Source: Rubrobacter sp. (lineage in GTDB: Bacteria > Chloroflexota > Chloroflexia > Thermobaculales > Thermobaculaceae). Taken from it: a stretch of 36,046 bases of DNA. Where the stretch lies: assembly GCA_016781735.1 (NCBI GenBank), contig JADDPT010000096.1, forward strand, positions 1 through 36,046, in the 5' to 3' direction. The translations under genes and the position numbers were made by a program. The notes under the pieces were generated by a model. That model ran no database searches. It was given only the letters and a program-made list of their open reading frames with translations, and had not been told where the DNA came from. Shown in pieces: positions 7,172 through 19,801 of this stretch. How positions within the stretch are numbered: the first letter of the stretch is position 1; the number at the start of each line of letters is the position of its first letter.

Positions 7172-8572
7172 ATGACCGCAACCTTCCTGTTCCTCATCTT
7201 CGGCGTGCTGTTCGTTGCAATCGCCTTGATCTCGCCGCTTCTAGAGCGACTGCCGGTATCCACGTCGAACGTATACCTGCTGGTGGGGTTGCTGATGGGA
7301 CCCGAGGTGCTCGGGCTACTCTCTCGCGACGCCATGCGTGAGGCCGGAGTCCTGGAGCGGCTGACGGAGGTTGCCGTCATCGTCTCGCTGTTCACCGTGG
7401 GGCTGAACATAAGACGCAGCCTGAGCAACCCTCGCTGGCTGCCGCCACTCCGGCTTGCCACCATCACGATGGTGCTCACTATCGCAGCAATAACACTGAT
7501 CGGCACAATGCTACTTCGCTTGCCTCTGGGCGCAGCGGTACTCCTGGGTGCGGTACTCGCTCCCACCGATCCGGTGCTGGCTTCGGACGTACAGGTCCAG
7601 GGAATAGCAGACCAGGATGACGTGCGCTCTGGGCTGACCGGCGAGGCAGGACTCAACGACGGCGCTGCGTTCCCGTTCGTGATGCTCGGACTTGGTCTGC
7701 TCGGGCTACACCCGGACGACCAGGCAGGCTTTCTCAAGCTGTGGGCCGGAGGAGAGTTCACCCTGCCGGTTTGGCTCGCATGGGATGTCGTGTGGGCGGT
7801 AAGCGTGGGCCTGGCAGTGGGATGGGGCACCGGGTGGGCGGTTGGGAAAGCGGCGCTGTACCTGCAGCGCCGACAGAGGACGGCGCTTGGTCTGTTCGAG
7901 TTTCTTGTGCTCGGCCTCATCGCACTGTCGTACGGGCTCGCCGAGCTACTATACGCGTACGGCTTCCTTGCCGTGTTCGCAGCCGGTTACGCGCTACGCT
8001 ACCTTGAGATACACAGTACTGAGTACGCGGACGTACCTGTCGAGTTGCCCGCCATAACACCAGGAGATCGGGAGGCCGCCACCGAGATCGCAGTCGCGGA
8101 GCCGAAGCAGGCGGCTCATTTCCTCACCGTGGCGCTGCTAGACTTCAATTACCAACTGGAGCACATACTTGAAGCCGGGGTCGTAGTCCTAGTCGGCGCG
8201 CTGCTCACGCGGGAGTACTGGACGTTCGAGGTGCTGTGGCTCGCACCGCTGCTCTTCCTGATCGTGCGCCCTGTGTCGGTTTGGCTCGGCTTACTCGGGA
8301 GCAAGCTTAGCAGGGCGCAGGTAGGGCTTGTAGGCTGGTTCGGCATCCGCGGACTCGGGTCCATATACTACCTCACGTACGCCACCGAGCACGGCCTACC
8401 GGAGGATATGGCACGGAGGCTCACCAGCCTGGTACTGTCTGTTGTGGCGGTGTCGATCGTGGTGCATGGAGTAAGTGTCACGCCGTTGATGTCTTGGTAT
8501 GAAGGGAAGCGTGATGAACGACAGGCGATAGCCGCGAGACACGACGAGCTGGCTTCGCAGGTTGACGCCTGA
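7172..8572 (+). CDS. Cation:proton antiporter (CPA1 family)
   Basis: 466 aa polytopic protein; LAPTDPVLASDVQ and GEAGLNDGAAFPFVM motifs. Confidence 0.88.
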   Translation: MTATFLFLIFGVLFVAIALISPLLERLPVSTSNVYLLVGLLMGPEVLGLLSRDAMREAGVLERLTEVAVIVSLFTVGLNIRRSLSNPRWLPPLRLATITMVLTIAAITLIGTMLLRLPLGAAVLLGAVLAPTDPVLASDVQVQGIADQDDVRSGLTGEAGLNDGAAFPFVMLGLGLLGLHPDDQAGFLKLWAGGEFTLPVWLAWDVVWAVSVGLAVGWGTGWAVGKAALYLQRRQRTALGLFEFLVLGLIALSYGLAELLYAYGFLAVFAAGYALRYLEIHSTEYADVPVELPAITPGDREAATEIAVAEPKQAAHFLTVALLDFNYQLEHILEAGVVVLVGALLTREYWTFEVLWLAPLLFLIVRPVSVWLGLLGSKLSRAQVGLVGWFGIRGLGSIYYLTYATEHGLPEDMARRLTSLVLSVVAVSIVVHGVSVTPLMSWYEGKRDERQAIAARHDELASQVDA

Positions 8573-8696
8573 TCGCAATGAGAAACGCCGTACCTGGTCG
8601 GGCACGGCGGCCTGTCATGTCCTCGTAAGAGGGGGCAGGGGAGCAGTTGGCTGGACAGGCGTGGCGAGACCCGTACCTGTAAAAGGAGTGGTATCC

Positions 8697-9266
8697 ATGG
8701 CGGTCAATATGGAGGTGGCTTGGGAGAGGTTTCACCCTAGACTCAAAAGCTTCATCCTTGGGCAGGTGAGGGACCAGCATGTGAGCGAGGACATCCTGCA
8801 GGACGTGTATCTGAAGGTGTACGCACATATAGAAACCCTGCGAGATGAGAGCAAGCTACAGCCATGGCTCTATCAGGTAGCTCGTAACGCCATCGCAGAC
8901 TATCACCGCAGCCGGGTGGCTACGTCCGAGCTACCTGAGCTGCCGTACTACCCGGACGACTCTCTCGACGAGGCGATGGCAACGGGCCTCAACCGAAGCG
9001 TCAAATCGATGTTGGAGTACCTTTCACCCGAGCACCGGCAGGCTCTCGTCCTCACCGAGTACGAGGGGTTGACCCAGGCAGAGCTGGCAAAGAAGCTGGG
9101 GGTTTCAGTGTCCGGGGCGAAATCGCGCGTGCAGCGAGCCAGGGCCAGACTCAAGGAACTGCTGCTGGCATGCTGCCACTTCGAGGTGGACCGCTATGGC
9201 AAGGTGCTCAACTTTTATCAGCGGAGGCCCGACTGCTGTGCCGGGAGTGGGTGCGGCGTCGCGTAA
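8697..9266 (+). CDS. sigZ: RNA polymerase sigma factor, SigZ-like
   Basis: HVSEDILQDVYLKVYAHIETLRDESKLQPWLYQVARNAIADYHR (region 2), GLTQAELAKKLGVSVSGAKSRVQRARARLKELL (region 4), Cys-rich C-terminus; ATG at 8697 preceded by AAAAGGAG. Confidence 0.85.
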   Translation: MAVNMEVAWERFHPRLKSFILGQVRDQHVSEDILQDVYLKVYAHIETLRDESKLQPWLYQVARNAIADYHRSRVATSELPELPYYPDDSLDEAMATGLNRSVKSMLEYLSPEHRQALVLTEYEGLTQAELAKKLGVSVSGAKSRVQRARARLKELLLACCHFEVDRYGKVLNFYQRRPDCCAGSGCGVA

Positions 9267-9383
9267 GTCGTACCCCCATGCTTCACGGTGCGTCCTTTTT
9301 CCACTTTCTCCGTCTATACATACGAGAAGGAGGTCGTAAGAACGGCCGCAACAGGGACGTGGTCCCGCACAGGAGGTGTTACC

Positions 9384-10202
<819 letters not shown>

Positions 10203-11763: not shown

Positions 11764-13584
11764 CTAACCCTTACGGGCTCGTGAGCGCTCGTTGTCGGTG
11801 AGGAGTTTCTTGCGGAGGCGGATGCTCTTCGGCGTCACCTCCACCAACTCGTCGTCCGTTATGAAGTCGAGCGACTGGTCGAGCGAGAGGATCAGGGGCG
11901 GAGTCAGGCGCACGGTCGCGTCGGCGTTGCTCGAGCGCATGTTCGTGAGCTTCTTCTCCTTGCAGATGTTGATCGGCAAGTCCGTGCCCCGCGAGTTCGC
12001 GCCGACTATCATCCCCTCGTACACTGGCGTGCCAGGCGGGATGAACGTGATGCCCCTCTCCTGCGCGTTCTGGATGGCGTAGCCGGTCGCGGGCCCGGTG
12101 TCAGTGGCGATCATTGCGCCAGGTCGGTCGCTGGCAATCGGCCCCGCGAGCGGCCTGTAACCTATGAACACGCTGCTCATCACTACCGTGCCGCGGGTAG
12201 CGGTTAGCAGGCTTCCCCTAAGACCGAGCAGTCCGCGCGTCGGCAGGTCGAACTCAAGGTGCGTCTCGCCCCTGCCTTCGTTGCGCATCTCCGTCATCGT
12301 CGCCTGCCTGCGACCCAGGTGCTCGACCACCGTGCCCACGTGCTCCTCGGCAACATCTATCGAGAGGTGCTCCCACGGCTCCTGCTTCACGCCGTCAAGC
12401 TCCACGATGATGGCCTCTGGCTTCGATACCTGGAACTCGTATCCCTCGCGGCGCATGTTTTCTATCAGAACCGCGAGGTGCAGCTCGCCACGACCCGCCA
12501 CCTCGAATACGTCCGCGGACGCGGTGGGATGCACACGCAGCGACAGGTTCGTCTCGAGCTCCGTGTAGAGCCTCTCTCGCAGCTTGCGCGACGTGCTCCA
12601 CGTGCCCTCGCGGCCGCTGAACGGGCTGGTGCTCACGCCGAACGTCATCTTGATCGTCGGCTCGCTCACGGCGATGCGGGGCAGCGCCTCCGGATGCTCA
12701 GGGTCGGCGATAGTGTCGCCTATGCCCACAGCGTCCATGCCGGTGAGCGCCACGATGTCACCCGCGCGCGCCTCACGGACCTCCTGCCTGGTCAGACCCT
12801 GGTACAGGTACACCTGGTTGACCTGCGCCGCCACCGACTCTCCCGTCGGCGTAAGCACGACCACAGGCTGAGCCGGGCGTAACGTGCCCCGGCTGATGCG
12901 CCCTATGGCGTACCGGCCGCGATAGGAGTCGTAGTCCAGCGTCGTGACGAGCAGCTGCAGTGGCGCCTCGGGATCGCCGGCGGGCGGGGGAACCTGGGAG
13001 AGTATAGACTCAAAGAGGGGAACCAAGTCCGTGCGCGGCGCGTCGAGGCTCTCCGCCGCCCACTCCTCCCTGCCGGAAGCATAGAGGACGGGAAAATCAA
13101 GCTGCGCCTCATCAGTCGCCAACTCGAGGAAGAGGTCGGAGACCTCCTCGAGCACCTCATCCACCCGTGCCGCAGCCCGGTCCACCTTGTTTATCACCAC
13201 GACGGGCTTCAGGTTGAGCTCGAGCGCCTTCTTCAAAACGAAGTACGTCTGGGGCATCGGCCCCTCCACCGCGTCGATAATAAGAAGCACGCCGTCGGCC
13301 ATCAGCAGCACGCGTTCCACCTCCCCGCCGAAGTCGGCGTGGCCGGGCGTGTCGATAATGTTTATCTTTGTGCCCCTGTACGTGACCGCGGTGTTCTTGG
13401 CGAGGATGGTGATGCCCCGCTCGCGCTCGAGCGCGTTGGAGTCAAGCATGCGCTCCTCGAGCACCTGGCTCTCGCGGAAGATGTGGCTCTGCTTTAGCAT
13501 GCCGTCCACGAGCGTCGTCTTGCCGTGGTCAACATGGGCGATGATGGCGACGTTCCGAATGTCGTCGCGCCTGGCGTCAGTCAT
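11764..13584 (-). CDS. typA: Translational GTPase TypA/BipA
   Basis: MTDARRDDIRNVAIIAHVDHGKTTLVDGMLKQS, DTPGHADFGGEVERVL, RGLLGLRGSLLTATRGTVVMSSVF; ATG at 13584. Confidence 0.96.
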   Translation of the reverse strand: MTDARRDDIRNVAIIAHVDHGKTTLVDGMLKQSHIFRESQVLEERMLDSNALERERGITILAKNTAVTYRGTKINIIDTPGHADFGGEVERVLLMADGVLLIIDAVEGPMPQTYFVLKKALELNLKPVVVINKVDRAAARVDEVLEEVSDLFLELATDEAQLDFPVLYASGREEWAAESLDAPRTDLVPLFESILSQVPPPAGDPEAPLQLLVTTLDYDSYRGRYAIGRISRGTLRPAQPVVVLTPTGESVAAQVNQVYLYQGLTRQEVREARAGDIVALTGMDAVGIGDTIADPEHPEALPRIAVSEPTIKMTFGVSTSPFSGREGTWSTSRKLRERLYTELETNLSLRVHPTASADVFEVAGRGELHLAVLIENMRREGYEFQVSKPEAIIVELDGVKQEPWEHLSIDVAEEHVGTVVEHLGRRQATMTEMRNEGRGETHLEFDLPTRGLLGLRGSLLTATRGTVVMSSVFIGYRPLAGPIASDRPGAMIATDTGPATGYAIQNAQERGITFIPPGTPVYEGMIVGANSRGTDLPINICKEKKLTNMRSSNADATVRLTPPLILSLDQSLDFITDDELVEVTPKSIRLRKKLLTDNERSRARKG

Positions 13585-13990: not shown

Positions 13991-15208
13991 CTAGGCCTGG
14001 GACTCGTACTGCTGTCGGAACTCGGGGAAGTGCCGCTTGAGTTCCTCTGTCGAGCTCTGGGTGACAGACTCCGTCAGCCCGGTCGTGATGTTGCTCATCG
14101 TCTGCCCCTGCCCCTGCTGCGCCTGACTACGCGCCTTCAGAACTTGGGCGAGGAGCGCAGCTACCAGCAGCCCTCGGGTACCGCTCAGGCTCCTGTCCAG
14201 GACGCTGGGAAGTCGGCTCTCGGCGAACTCCTCGCCCTTCTCGGTAATGGCCGCGACCACGCCGGCGCGAAGAGACGTCTGCCCGAGCACACCCTCCAGG
14301 TTCTGTTCCAGGTAATCGCGCAGCTCTCGAGTCGTGAACTGCTTCGCACGCTGAACGGTTGCTGGTACGAGCGCCTGCCTGATATGGTCTACCTCTTGCT
14401 GGTTCGGCAGAGCCCCGGAGGTAGAGATGGTGCTTCCCAGATTGCTGGCCTGGGTACGTACGGCCTGCGTCACCTTCGACACCTGCGGCGCGAGGGTCGG
14501 CTGAAGTGCCGCACCGGTGACCACGGCTGCACTCAACACCGTGAGTGGTCGCTGCTGCACCTGCTGGTTGACGGAGGTTCCGAGATTGCCCACGCCGCCG
14601 CTGAGGCTACTGGCTAGGCCGGAGACCTGCTCGGACACCGTACTCGCCACGCTACCCGTCGTCTCCGCGACCTGGCCAGCCACCTGGCTGGTCGTGTTCA
14701 CCGCCTGACCGGCCACGGTGGCTGTGGTGTCTGCTATCGCCGCGACTGCGCCGGAGGCCGTCTCGCCGACCGTCTGCGCAACGCCGCCCGCAACATCACC
14801 AACTGCCTGGGCTGCGCCCGCGGCGGTGTCCGCGGCGCTCGAAGCTGCGCTGGAGACTGTCTCACCCGCGCTGGCGGAGCCCGCCTTCTCGCTGACCGTG
14901 CTACCGACCTGCGAGAGCGTCCCCGAGACTCCGCTCGTTGCGCCACCTGCAGTGCCCCGCAGGCTGCTCGCTGCCGACGTTATGGAGCCACCTTGTCCAC
15001 CAGACAGTACGCCCTTCAAGACCGAGCCGGCAGCTATCGAGAGGCCAAGTGCCAACAGGGGCCGCTTCTGTACCTGCTGAGTAAGGCTCGCGGTCACGCC
15101 TAGGCCACCGCCACTCTCCTGAGTAGCGGAGATGGCGTCGAGGCGCGTACTCATTCGGTCGCGCGTCTGTGCTATCTCAGTCTGGATGTGATCTGATGTA
15201 GTATCCAT
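13991..15208 (-). CDS. DUF3618-like protein with alanine-rich 11-mer repeats
   Basis: N-terminus SDHIQTEIAQTRDRMSTRLDAI (DUF3618-like), two xRPLxxL hydrophobic segments, seven 11-residue repeats; GGAGGACAAAGA before ATG 15208. Confidence 0.8.
   Translation of the reverse strand: MDTTSDHIQTEIAQTRDRMSTRLDAISATQESGGGLGVTASLTQQVQKRPLLALGLSIAAGSVLKGVLSGGQGGSITSAASSLRGTAGGATSGVSGTLSQVGSTVSEKAGSASAGETVSSAASSAADTAAGAAQAVGDVAGGVAQTVGETASGAVAAIADTTATVAGQAVNTTSQVAGQVAETTGSVASTVSEQVSGLASSLSGGVGNLGTSVNQQVQQRPLTVLSAAVVTGAALQPTLAPQVSKVTQAVRTQASNLGSTISTSGALPNQQEVDHIRQALVPATVQRAKQFTTRELRDYLEQNLEGVLGQTSLRAGVVAAITEKGEEFAESRLPSVLDRSLSGTRGLLVAALLAQVLKARSQAQQGQGQTMSNITTGLTESVTQSSTEELKRHFPEFRQQYESQA
14627..14857 (-). 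repeat. Seven degenerate 11-residue repeats in the DUF3618-like protein
   Basis: VSSAASSAADT/AAGAAQAVGDV/AGGVAQTVGET/ASGAVAAIADT/TATVAGQAVNT/TSQVAGQVAET/TGSVASTVSEQ. Confidence 0.8.
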
Positions 15209-15588
15209 TCTTTGTCCTCCTTGAGGCTATTGATAGTCTTCTGCGGGACGATATCCAGGCTCGCAAGGTTGCGCCAGGCGCGTCCCACAAGCACCGTGCC
15301 GGCAAGTACGAGCGCTCCCCCCGAGAGGAGCGAGGCTGCCCAGGGTGGCATCCGAGTCGCGAGTGCACGAACGGCGGCTTGCAGCAGGTACGATATGCCA
15401 AACACTGACAACACGCCCCCGCCGATCATCAAGCCCGCGGATCGGAGTGCGGGACCAAGTTTCTCCTTCGACTCCTGTTGGGCGAGCCGAGCCTCCTGCC
15501 GCACAAGCTCCGCTCCATCGCGGGCGACGCCAGCCACCTGAGACAACACCCTCACGGCCTGGCGGGCGCCGCCGTCCATACTGCTCAT
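15172..15588 (-). CDS. Holin-like membrane protein (PF07332 / Phage_holin_3_6-type, YqjE-like)
   Basis: GAELVRQEARLAQQESKEKLGPALRSAGLMIGGGVLSVFGISYLLQAAVRALATRMPPWAASLLSGGALVLAGTVLVGRA; overlaps the start of the DUF3618-like gene. Confidence 0.82.
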   Translation of the reverse strand: MSSMDGGARQAVRVLSQVAGVARDGAELVRQEARLAQQESKEKLGPALRSAGLMIGGGVLSVFGISYLLQAAVRALATRMPPWAASLLSGGALVLAGTVLVGRAWRNLASLDIVPQKTINSLKEDKEWILHQITSRLR

Positions 15589-15602
15589 TCACCGTTGCCC
15601 GG

Positions 15603-16826
15603 CTAAACCGTCGGGCGTGAGCCGCCGCTGCTGGTGGTATCGTCCGATGTTCCACCTTCGGTGTCAGTGGTGTAGCCAGTCCCTGTGTCGGCTCCCAGCA
15701 GAGGGTCGTCCGCCGTGAGTACGTCGACCTCGACCACCGTCAGGTCGTCGGTAGTGGGATCGGTACCGTACGGGTCCGTTCCGGTGGAGAAATCATCAAT
15801 CGCCGCCGCGCCGTAGACATCAGTGGTGACAGGCTCGACAGGAACATCCACGAGTCCCGTATCCCCCAGACCTGCAGTCGCGGTCGTGGCCGTTGTATCG
15901 TAGTCGTATACGCCGGTCGCGCCAGTGTCGGAGAACGTGGCGTCCGTGGTCGCGGCGCCCGTGGTGGCAAGGTCCGTGGTTGCGACGTCCGTGCCCGAGG
16001 TCGTGGTCTGTGAGGACTGGCCACCACCCTGTCCTGAGAAGAACGTGCCCCGCGCCAGGTAGCCGAGGCCGAGGCCGACGAGCAGCGAGCGTCCCGGGTT
16101 CCTGCGGACGGCGCCACGCAGGTCCTGGGCGATTATCGTTAGATCCGGTTGCCTCAGGTACTGAGCCAGCTTGTCGAGCACGTTCGAGGTCGTCACTGCA
16201 ACCGACCGCTGGACACCGGATGCGTCCGGGCCGGCTCCCCTCTGCTCGACTGTGTCGGCGAGGCTCTGAACCGCGCCCGCCGCGCCACCAGTAACCCTGC
16301 TCACCTGCGCGCTCGTCGCGCTCGCCGCTTGCTGGGCGGTGTCGCCCACTGTCGAGGCCGCTTGTTGTACCGTGTCGGCCACCGTTGAAGCCGCCTGCTG
16401 GGCAGTGTCGGCCACGGACGAGGTGGCCTGCTGAGCCGTACCAGCGGCAGACGACGCGGCTTGTTGTACGGTGTCAGTGGCGGACGATGCAGCCTGCTTC
16501 ACAGAGTCGGTGGCGGAACTGCCACTATCCTGCCCGCCGGTCGTCGTGGAAGACACAGTACCAGTATCCATACCAGTGGTGGTAGAACCCACCAGCGGGT
16601 CCCCGAAACCGATACCGGCGTCCGTCATCGCCGCGGCCATCGCCGTGTTCGGGGTCTCACCGAGCAGCTCGCGAGCCCTAGTCTCGTAGCTGGCGATCAC
16701 CCTCAGCTTCTTTCCGGTGCGGAACACCATGTTGTCGTTCGCGCCACTCTCAATCAGCATGCTCTCGGCGGCCTTGGCGTCATCCGTCGTGTCATACTCC
16801 CTAATCAGAACTCTCTCAGCACTCAC
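15603..16826 (-). CDS. LEA-like 11-mer repeat protein with membrane-like segment and acidic tail
   Basis: N-terminal domain ERVLIREYDTTDDAKAAESMLIESGA; six 11-mers of the DTxQQAASSxA type; RRNPGRSLLVGLGLGYLARGTFF; Thr/Asp-rich C-terminus. GTG at 16826 with GGGAGGAGA upstream. Confidence 0.75.
   Translation of the reverse strand: MSAERVLIREYDTTDDAKAAESMLIESGANDNMVFRTGKKLRVIASYETRARELLGETPNTAMAAAMTDAGIGFGDPLVGSTTTGMDTGTVSSTTTGGQDSGSSATDSVKQAASSATDTVQQAASSAAGTAQQATSSVADTAQQAASTVADTVQQAASTVGDTAQQAASATSAQVSRVTGGAAGAVQSLADTVEQRGAGPDASGVQRSVAVTTSNVLDKLAQYLRQPDLTIIAQDLRGAVRRNPGRSLLVGLGLGYLARGTFFSGQGGGQSSQTTTSGTDVATTDLATTGAATTDATFSDTGATGVYDYDTTATTATAGLGDTGLVDVPVEPVTTDVYGAAAIDDFSTGTDPYGTDPTTDDLTVVEVDVLTADDPLLGADTGTGYTTDTEGGTSDDTTSSGGSRPTV
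16311..16508 (-). repeat. Six tandem 33-bp degenerate repeats encoding 11-residue units
   Basis: DSVKQAASSAT/DTVQQAASSAA/GTAQQATSSVA/DTAQQAASTVA/DTVQQAASTVG/DTAQQAASATS. Confidence 0.92.
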
Positions 16827-17081: not shown

Positions 17082-18518
17082 CTACACCGTTAGGAGAGGC
17101 AAAGGCTCCTGGCGGTTCGCGGCGTCGTTCCAGTGCAGCAGGTGGGCTATAGGCTCGCCGGTCTCGGGGTCCATCGTCACCTGAACGAAAGAGAACCGCT
17201 CGCGAGCGCCGAGTAGCTCGAAGGCGTTGGGGACGACGGGAGTCCATGTGCCCGTGTTGAGGTAGCGCGGGTACGCACCATCGAGAACGAGCGGGTATTG
17301 CTCGGCGTTATGGGTGTGACCAAACACATACACCGGCACCTCCTTGCCTTCCTTCCTCAGTATTCGATGTATGGAGAGAGCCGCCCTGTGGAGATAGCCG
17401 AGCGGGTGAGCAGCTGGCCGAAGCACTCCTCGCTCACGCCACACCAGGCCCGCCAGTCCAGCGGCAAGCAGTAGAAAAGAGCTGATGCTGCTGCGTAGGC
17501 GATTCAGCGCGGCCCAGAGGGTGACGAAGGCACCCGCCAGGGGAACGAGCGGCAGGAGCGGCTCGAGGAGGAGGGAGCGCAGCAGGCGCGTCCTGCTCCT
17601 CATGGCAGGCACGGCAGCCAGCGAGTCTATCGCCACGAGAGTTCGGTGGCTCAAACCAACGACCTCCGCGTGAGCGCGAAGGTGCTCCTCGCGGTACGCC
17701 CTGCACCGCGCCTCGGTCTCTGCGACGGGTACGTCTCCAACGCGCGTCCACACGTTGAACAGGAAGCGGAAGTACTTTCCCAGGAGCATGATTGCGAGTA
17801 CGGGATGCACCCGAAACGACCACAGCAGGTAGCGGTTCACGGGCCGGATGTTATCGGCAAAGGGGTCCATGCTCTCGATCCGGTTGAAAAGATAGGTTAC
17901 GAAGTACGAGCCGAGCGGCAGGTCTATAACGTCGACATCGTCGTCGACGTACGGGGTGAGCAGGGTCGCAAAAGAGTTTGCGTGCTCGTACTGCTGCCCG
18001 TGCTCCGCGTACAGCACGCCGGGCACGTAGAGGATCCAGGGATGAAAGTTGATCCGTGCGGAAACCTCGGGCGTGCCGCACTTCTCGACCAGCAACTGCT
18101 TGAAATGCTCCTGAGTGCGTGGACGGATCATCTCGATGTCGTGGTTGCCCACGACTATGTCTACGTTGAAGCCCTGCGCCGCGAACTCTCCGAGGGCCTG
18201 GAAGAACTCCGCGTGCCCGGCTACCACCCTCTCCAGCTTGGCGATCGTGGCAGCTTCGGACACGTCGGGCCCCGGCCCGTCCTTACGCGCTTCGGGTACG
18301 TCCACCTGCAGAAAGTCGAAGAAATCACCCAGGATAACGAGCCTCCAACGCCGGCCTTCTACCTCCGCGCGCTTCGACAGGTCCGCCAGGAAGCGCGCGA
18401 ATGCAGCGTCGTAAAAGAAGTCCTCGTTGCGATTGTATGCCCCGGTCCGCGGGTCGTATCCCGCGGAGAGGTGAAGGTCGCTCACTATGACGATGTCGTT
18501 ACTGCCGCTCTTGGACAT
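17082..18518 (-). CDS. Membrane-associated metallophosphoesterase
   Basis: IVSDLHLSAG, VILGDFFDFLQ, IVVGNHDIEMI, YVFGHTHNAEQYP motifs; hydrophobic segments between GNHD and GHTH; ATG at 18518. Confidence 0.88.
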   Translation of the reverse strand: MSKSGSNDIVIVSDLHLSAGYDPRTGAYNRNEDFFYDAAFARFLADLSKRAEVEGRRWRLVILGDFFDFLQVDVPEARKDGPGPDVSEAATIAKLERVVAGHAEFFQALGEFAAQGFNVDIVVGNHDIEMIRPRTQEHFKQLLVEKCGTPEVSARINFHPWILYVPGVLYAEHGQQYEHANSFATLLTPYVDDDVDVIDLPLGSYFVTYLFNRIESMDPFADNIRPVNRYLLWSFRVHPVLAIMLLGKYFRFLFNVWTRVGDVPVAETEARCRAYREEHLRAHAEVVGLSHRTLVAIDSLAAVPAMRSRTRLLRSLLLEPLLPLVPLAGAFVTLWAALNRLRSSISSFLLLAAGLAGLVWRERGVLRPAAHPLGYLHRAALSIHRILRKEGKEVPVYVFGHTHNAEQYPLVLDGAYPRYLNTGTWTPVVPNAFELLGARERFSFVQVTMDPETGEPIAHLLHWNDAANRQEPLPLLTV

Positions 18519-18574
18519 GCCGCTGTCGATCTCCTCGCTCCGCGGCCCGATGCTAGCACCGTCGGACAGGGGTG

Positions 18575-19483
18575 TCAACGCCGGGAACTCTCGCTGCTCG
18601 TCACAGCCGCATCATTGGCCAACTTCTCCGTGAGCACCGGTTCCTCACCGGACGCCTCACTCCCCCGTCCTCGGCAGTACGCCGCGGAAATTTCTGCGCC
18701 GAACAGGAAGATGGCGGCGGTGATGTAGGCCCAGAACAGCACCACTGCAATGGACGCTAGCGAGCCGTACACCTCGTCGTACCTGCTGCCGAAGGTGCTG
18801 ATGTACGCCTGAAACGCTTCCTGGCTGACCTGGAACAGCACCGTGGCGACTACGGCTCCCGGCAAGGCATCGCGCCACTGCACTCGTCTGCGCGGCATGT
18901 AACGGTAGAAGAGCAACACGATGGCGAACCCTGCCCCCTTGGCCGCAACCTCCTCGATGAAGTTGGGCCAGCCCTCCTCCGGAGACGCCGACCTCGATAG
19001 GAGCGAGGACCAGAGTGAGGCAGCATTCGCCTTATACAGCATGGTAACGGAGACGACGGCCACGGAGAGCGCGACCAGAAAGACCTCGATCAGGAGTCGA
19101 GTCTTCATCTTGTAGTTATGCTTCACGTCCCAGGCATCGTTCATGGCGCGCGTCGTGTGCGCGAAGATGCGAGTCCCGGACCAAAGCAGGGCAACGATCG
19201 ATATGCCTGCCGCCGATCCGCCAGCCTCGATCGCGCCGCGGAGCGCGTTCTCGATGAGCTTCTCACCTAGGGGCACATACTCCCCTATGACCTGCACTAA
19301 CCGACCGGGAGCCTCCTCCGGATCGAGGACGGCCCGGCTCACGAAGACGGAGAGTAGGAGCAACGGAAAGCCGGAGAAGAGCACGTAGAATGCGAGGCTG
19401 GCAGCGAGAAGGGTACAGTGGTCCTTGAAGAATCCGCGCACCGCCGACTCCAGCACCCGCGCAGCCGCGAGCAACCAGCTCAT
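18575..19483 (-). CDS. YihY/virulence factor BrkB family membrane protein
   Basis: DHCTLLAASLAFYVLFSGFPLLLLSVF, RRRVQWRDALPGAVVATVLFQVSQEAFQAYIS, SLASIAVVLFWAYITAAIFLFGAEI. Confidence 0.9.
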   Translation of the reverse strand: MSWLLAAARVLESAVRGFFKDHCTLLAASLAFYVLFSGFPLLLLSVFVSRAVLDPEEAPGRLVQVIGEYVPLGEKLIENALRGAIEAGGSAAGISIVALLWSGTRIFAHTTRAMNDAWDVKHNYKMKTRLLIEVFLVALSVAVVSVTMLYKANAASLWSSLLSRSASPEEGWPNFIEEVAAKGAGFAIVLLFYRYMPRRRVQWRDALPGAVVATVLFQVSQEAFQAYISTFGSRYDEVYGSLASIAVVLFWAYITAAIFLFGAEISAAYCRGRGSEASGEEPVLTEKLANDAAVTSSESSRR

Positions 19484-19801
19484 CACACCTCCAGCCCTCG
19501 CAGTAACCCGATGGCGGAGCATACCATATAACGCCCAGGTGATCCCGGACGCTTCTTCTGATCCGGGCGCTTGATGCATCTTTCCCAGCCTGGTGCGTTC
19601 GTTGTCCCAAAGAGAGCGCCCCGGCGACACGAATGTCTCGCCGAGATATCGACGGCAAGAGGAACGCTGATGCGGCTCTGGCACTGTCCTGCCCGAGCCA
19701 ACAACGCTGACACAAGAACACCCTCCGCCGGGGCAAAGTAGCAGGTCGAGGTCACCGGGCCGGCGGGAGCGAGTCAGGGAGGGCGCGGCCGGGCCTGGCC
19801 G

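Follow-up and report, generated by a model that had tools for sequence, protein, structure and literature searches.

What kind of operon is formed by three co-oriented, tightly packed minus-strand ORFs (genes A, B and C) of which the outer two encode 11-residue-repeat proteins and the middle one a holin-like membrane protein? The locus lies in a stretch of 36,046 nt, referred to below as the window, from a 1.9 Mb Rubrobacter draft genome (136 contigs, 78% complete). The initial annotation had likened it to E. coli yqjD-yqjE-yqjK and, because of the repeats, had proposed a membrane-tethered protection module built on proteins of the group-3 LEA kind. As judged from sequence comparison, it is very probably a YqjD-YqjE-type operon in the form which that takes in Chloroflexia: a gene with a DUF883-like anchor, followed by one of the PF07332 ('Holin-X') type and one of the DUF3618 type. 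The relevant features are the following.

18575..19684 (-): BrkB/YihY membrane protein, upstream of A (PF03631, E=6.9e-51)
15603..16826 (-): gene A, anchored 11-residue-repeat protein, YqjD/DUF883-like by position and anchor (ORF, Shine-Dalgarno, orthologs, anchor profile)
16653..16826 (-): A residues 1-58, conserved N-domain, predicted beta-alpha-beta-beta-alpha (AF2; ortholog conservation)
16287..16517 (-): A residues 104-180, seven hendecad (11-residue) units, Ala/Ser/Thr/Gln-rich (lag-11; hydrophobic moment)
16041..16178 (-): A residues 217-262, DUF883-type glycine-rich membrane anchor DLRGAVRRNPGRSLLVGLGLGYLARG (class anchor profile)
15606..16025 (-): A residues 268-407, acidic Thr/Asp/Gly-rich tail, predicted disordered (composition; AF2 pLDDT <45)
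15172..15588 (-): gene B, PF07332 Phage_holin_3_6 / YqjE-like membrane protein (Pfam; two hydrophobic regions)
15172..15208 (-): B/C overlap, 37 bp (length kept in orthologous loci)
13991..15208 (-): gene C, DUF3618-type anchored 11-residue-repeat protein (position behind PF07332; orthologs)
15128..15208 (-): C residues 1-27, DUF3618 N-terminal half-motif (class DUF3618 profile)
14984..15070 (-): C residues 47-75, first glycine-rich anchor and SGGQGG linker (hydropathy 1.77 at 51-69; aligned conservation)
14567..14965 (-): C residues 82-214, degenerate 11-residue repeats (lag-11; hydrophobic moment)
14489..14560 (-): C residues 217-240, second anchor, behind the repeats (hydropathy 1.49)
13994..14416 (-): C residues 265-405, conserved helical C-terminal domain (ortholog conservation)

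The gene layout reported initially, with its tight spacing and one overlap, was borne out: A and B are separated by 14 bp, and the 37-bp overlap of B with C was found unchanged in all the copies examined in a second genus (L045, both copies, L046 and L047). B-C overlaps of 21-36 bp are common across the class. Gene A (407 aa) begins with a GTG preceded, 8 nt upstream, by a strong Shine-Dalgarno sequence, GGGAGGAG, and its start (MSSERV..) is common to the orthologs; gene C (405 aa) has an AAGGAGG site and gene B codes for 138 aa. Alignment of the upstream DNA across genera gave no clear conserved promoter, L045 having an N run there. At L045 8861-12235 the operon appears to be duplicated in tandem, with B copies 98% identical and one C truncated; since an N gap follows at 12251-12350, a scaffolding artefact is possible and the duplication was kept out of the evidence. 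Elsewhere in the window (8562-10202, plus strand) is a gene for a sigma-70-family factor with ECF-like regions 2 and 4, beside a methyltransferase gene whose Cys-rich GGCCGSSTCC stretch suggests that it is possibly an arsenite methyltransferase.

The assignment of the middle gene to PF07332 was confirmed (E=3.1e-23, 82.4 bits against a curated cut-off of 28.4), and the B protein has two hydrophobic regions, at residues ~47-77 and ~84-102. In E. coli, YqjE is a PF07332 protein (E=3.5e-21) and YqjD a DUF883 protein, so that the first two genes of the window operon correspond to yqjD-yqjE, in both cases an anchored helical protein followed by a PF07332 protein. The likeness to yqjD-yqjE-yqjK stops there: E. 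coli YqjK scores E=7.6e-25 with its profile PF13997, whereas the same Pfam search gave no PF13997 match in C. The identification of C with YqjK was thus rejected and the third gene is of the DUF3618 type.

Gene order was then considered at the level of the class, in a survey of 120 genomes restricted to matches above cut-off. PF07332 was present in 36 of them and DUF3618 in 21. All DUF3618 matches (23/23) were directly behind a same-strand PF07332 gene, and a gene encoding an anchor (e.g. DLEALVRRKPVESLLVAAGVGFLLSK) stood directly in front of PF07332 in at least 26 of the 30 fetched loci; neighbourhood conservation, which had been suggested as a check, is therefore found class-wide. A narrower search with a PF07332 alignment returned five Chloroflexia/Thermobaculum loci. 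The canonical Chloroflexia operons (L052, L054, L056, L061) share with the window the A-PF07332-DUF3618 order, the anchors, the 11-residue repeats and the B-C overlap, but they differ from it by their charged, LEA-like repeats, by a full DUF3618 and by the absence of the N-domain of A and the C-terminal domain of C. In the PF07332 tree, B falls among solo PF07332 genes from its own family and apart from the canonical operon copy, which a member of that family (G002) also carries; the window operon is thus a divergent form, as far as sequences tell. The solo genes in question, without A or C neighbours, are at L060 6337-6762, L064 6669-7094, L049 6900-7313 and L048 5128-5538.

The link of C to DUF3618 was only partly upheld. 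With the Pfam profile PF12277, C scored 16.1 bits (E=0.013), under the cut-off of 24.9, and its ortholog in G006 was borderline (25.3 and 20.0 bits in two runs). Orthology (55-56% identity of C to its orthologs) and a profile made from the DUF3618 N-termini of the class, which matched C residues 1-27 with E=4.5e-6, are in favour of the assignment. For A (44-45% identity to its orthologs), neither PF05957 nor PF19029, the DUF883 families, gave a match above cut-off in the Pfam search. A class-wide profile of the upstream-gene anchors nevertheless recognized residues 217-258 with E=6e-9. All but one of the anchors in that profile come from other families, and two poor segments (L080 and L093) were included; it ranked A and C proteins of the window lineage highest, then E. 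coli YqjD and ElaB (marginal, E=0.01-0.02), with unrelated window ORFs at 0.25 or above.

The A anchor is weakly hydrophobic, its hydropathy being under the 1.2 cut-off in the window and above it in the L047 ortholog, and its position is internal, with a 140-residue tail behind it. For the second anchor of C, weak DUF883_C matches were obtained in the orthologs (E=0.0007-0.0018). The segment shared by A and C, which had been noticed at the outset as xR(N)Px3L...G...SG(G)QGG, is real and conserved; by its sequence, it is a DUF883-type glycine-rich anchor plus a glycine-rich linker. A and C are therefore probably membrane-anchored, in line with the tethering proposed initially. YqjD has a glycine-rich anchor as well, though placed as a C-terminal tail, and A is four times longer, with an N-domain and an acidic tail in addition.

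The 11-residue periodicity attributed to A and C was assessed with lag-11 self-identity scores set against composition-preserving shuffles. For A, z was 6.3 overall and 11.4 in the best 110-residue window, lag 11 being the top lag; for C, it was 4.1 overall and 6.0 locally, with lag 11 among the top lags. The hydrophobic moment peaked at 98.0 degrees per residue in the A repeat, the value of an 11/3 helix, and at 99.5 degrees in that of C (0/2000 shuffles as high in either case). The seven A units conform approximately to [ST][AV][TA]DT[VA]QQAAS: positions 2, 6, 9 and 10 make up one Ala/Val face and the D, T, Q and S residues another, a spacing which we take to fit the a, d, e, h pattern of a hendecad coiled coil. 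Among orthologs, z was 3.4-5.7 for A in two genomes and ~2.0 in L047, which is short of one 11-residue unit, and 4.2-5.5 for C in three genomes. The periodicity is thus real against shuffles, and since the second-genus orthologs are periodic too, a lack of it in orthologs, named at the outset as what would speak against the reading, is not what was found. E. coli YqjD and ElaB gave hydrophobic moment peaks at 98-98.5 degrees. As a best-window test, the 98-degree signal is weak by itself (values of 3-5 per 1000 shuffles were also obtained with unrelated control proteins), and for that reason the lag-11 and fixed-region tests were preferred.

Do these repeats make A and C LEA-like proteins, as the initial annotation suggested? 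A membrane-tethered group-3 LEA-like pair, disordered when wet, helical on drying and shielding membranes and proteins, is in our estimation unlikely. The 11-residue amphipathic repeats that A and C have in common with group-3 LEA proteins are real, but LEA_4 (PF02987) was matched by neither protein in the Pfam search, charged residues make up 7-9% of their repeats as against 36% in the LEA motif, and the anchors set them apart as well. The hydrophilin criteria are glycine >6% and a hydrophilicity index >1 (PMC5384071, PMC7448490); A and C both contain 11% glycine, but with GRAVY values of -0.23 and -0.06, respectively, they fall short on hydrophilicity, and group-3 LEA identity was not sustained for them. 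A LEA_4 search of the genomes gave 0 matches, the controls being equally silent. Class relatives of A are another matter: charged residues account for 21-42% of their best repeat windows, where GRAVY is -0.7 to -1.3, and LEA_4 matches one of these relatives with E=3e-8, under the cut-off. Given these charged, LEA-like repeats, the LEA idea would fit the wider Chloroflexia family better than the window proteins. Since YqjD and ElaB have the same 98-degree signal, the 11-residue period does not by itself imply LEA; it is a trait of the YqjD/ElaB-type group of anchored helices.

Other readings of the repeats and of B fare no better. The helices could bind flat to the surface of membranes, lipid bodies or PHA granules in the manner of perilipins, apolipoproteins or phasins, an option we regard as quite improbable: the amphipathic faces are small and uncharged, and relatives of A and C gave weak phasin matches and sub-threshold Apolipoprotein ones (down to E=1.2e-6 in the C of L052; cut-off 90 bits), but all of these are far under the cut-offs, PhaC was not found in the window's draft genome (78% complete, as above) or in family relatives, and both the conserved membrane anchors and the linkage to PF07332 speak for something else. 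That the repeats are mere low-complexity drift without shared function has very little to recommend it. They are of low complexity, and a 33-bp DNA tandem repeat (16324-16423) underlies that of A; composition-preserving shuffles, however, fall short of the signal, and gene order, the 37-bp overlap, the anchors and the flanking domains are kept between genera. Equally far-fetched, in our view, is an operon for lysis or protein export with B as a real holin. Its two membrane regions and the Pfam name Holin-X would suit such a role, but no phage gene or endolysin was found among the neighbours checked, the operon is chromosomal and conserved in many genomes, and the B homolog YqjE resides in the inner membrane and is encoded on the chromosome. 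As less likely rivals of the YqjD-YqjE-type reading, we retain classical LEA protection, phasin-like lipid binding and true holin action.

Pointers to function come from counterparts of the operon and from BrkB. In stationary-phase E. coli, YqjD, ElaB and YgaM recruit ribosomes to the inner membrane; RpoS upregulates yqjC, yqjD and yqjE (PMC10746276). The P. aeruginosa PA3040-PA3042 operon (YqjD, YqjE-like, hypothetical) resembles that of the window in its first two genes and tight spacing and is tied to envelope stress; its third gene is unrelated, as judged by its description rather than by sequence comparison (PMC11302039). In Actinoplanes, ACSP50_3381-3383, coding for DUF3618, Holin-X and BrkB proteins, are strongly upregulated upon expression of sigma-H, which has a putative osmotic-stress role (PMC11205660). 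There, as in the window, DUF3618 is beside PF07332 with BrkB as a neighbour; but no A-type gene is described and BrkB is adjacent, whereas in the window the BrkB gene is ~1.7 kb upstream of A on the same strand, with one gene between them. This gene (17082-18578, minus strand), which shares 4 bp with the BrkB gene, is predicted to be phosphoesterase-like from DLHLSAG, GNHD and GHTHN motifs seen by eye; it had no Pfam match at 1e-5. In genome G007, BrkB and PF07332 are fused in one reading frame (L053 6780-8216, minus strand; PF03631 E=6.2e-45, PF07332 E=6.8e-27), with a small gene behind in the DUF3618 position. On sequence grounds the fusion links BrkB to YqjE-like proteins, and the window BrkB is a possible functional partner of the operon. 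By analogy with the E. coli, P. aeruginosa and Actinoplanes counterparts, a stress role, as the initial annotation had supposed, appears to be the likeliest function.

Two segments set the window lineage apart. The 58-residue N-domain of A is 55% identical to that of its orthologs, and the ~140-residue C-terminal domain of C is the most conserved part of the protein (67-70% identity to orthologs). The AF2 model of A was confident in the N-domain only (pLDDT ~63-83 across residues 1-50, i.e. fair confidence) and of low confidence in the repeats; that of C had no confident region. Foldseek with the N-domain model returned nothing significant (best E=0.27). Searches with A 1-58 and C 265-405 gave nothing meaningful in Pfam or among PDB sequences and no match in 200 other genomes drawn from the phylum, a draw that left the sister genus outside; the sister genus carries both domains. 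By these searches they would be new domains, so far found only in this lineage, where they accompany repeats with few charges and which class relatives are without.

Taking these results together, we favour, with some confidence, an envelope-stress module in which membrane-tethered hendecad helices surround a holin-like scaffold. A and C would sit on the cytoplasmic membrane through their glycine-rich anchors, and their 11/3 amphipathic helices may either form coiled coils by pairing through the small Ala/Val faces or rest on the membrane. B, with its two membrane regions, would be their scaffold rather than a lysis pore, and the N-domain of A could be the partner-binding part. By analogy, the operon would be expressed under envelope, osmotic or stationary-phase stress, and its products would organize the membrane and hold cargo there, the cargo of YqjD in E. 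coli being ribosomes. The BrkB-PF07332 fusion and the sigma-H control of the Actinoplanes homologs would agree with such a module. Several points count against it: A does not reach the Pfam cut-off for DUF883, nor C that for DUF3618, the anchor of A has an internal position and little hydrophobicity, in contrast to the C-terminal tail of YqjD, B is grouped with solo PF07332 genes and not with canonical operon copies, many class genomes have neither PF07332 nor DUF3618, and the AF2 models of the repeats, for what such predictions indicate, are of low confidence. A bolder version, which we think rather unlikely, is an envelope-stress module common to several phyla (an anchored hendecad protein, a YqjE-like PF07332 protein and a DUF3618 protein, physically partnered by BrkB), forming here a dedicated membrane scaffold whose two new domains would recruit cargo such as ribosomes under stress.

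To our knowledge, YqjE, YqjK, DUF3618 and Holin-X proteins are widespread and have no known function. The operon set itself is widespread and mostly ordinary; what this lineage adds is two conserved protein segments. One lesson is that an 11-residue repeat should not, by itself, be read as LEA, YqjD/ElaB-type proteins carrying one. To conclude, a single conserved envelope-stress module is suggested by the tight linkage in Chloroflexia, by the like pairing of the Actinoplanes genes, by the counterparts in E. coli and Pseudomonas and by the fusion of BrkB to PF07332, all of which point to candidate partners.
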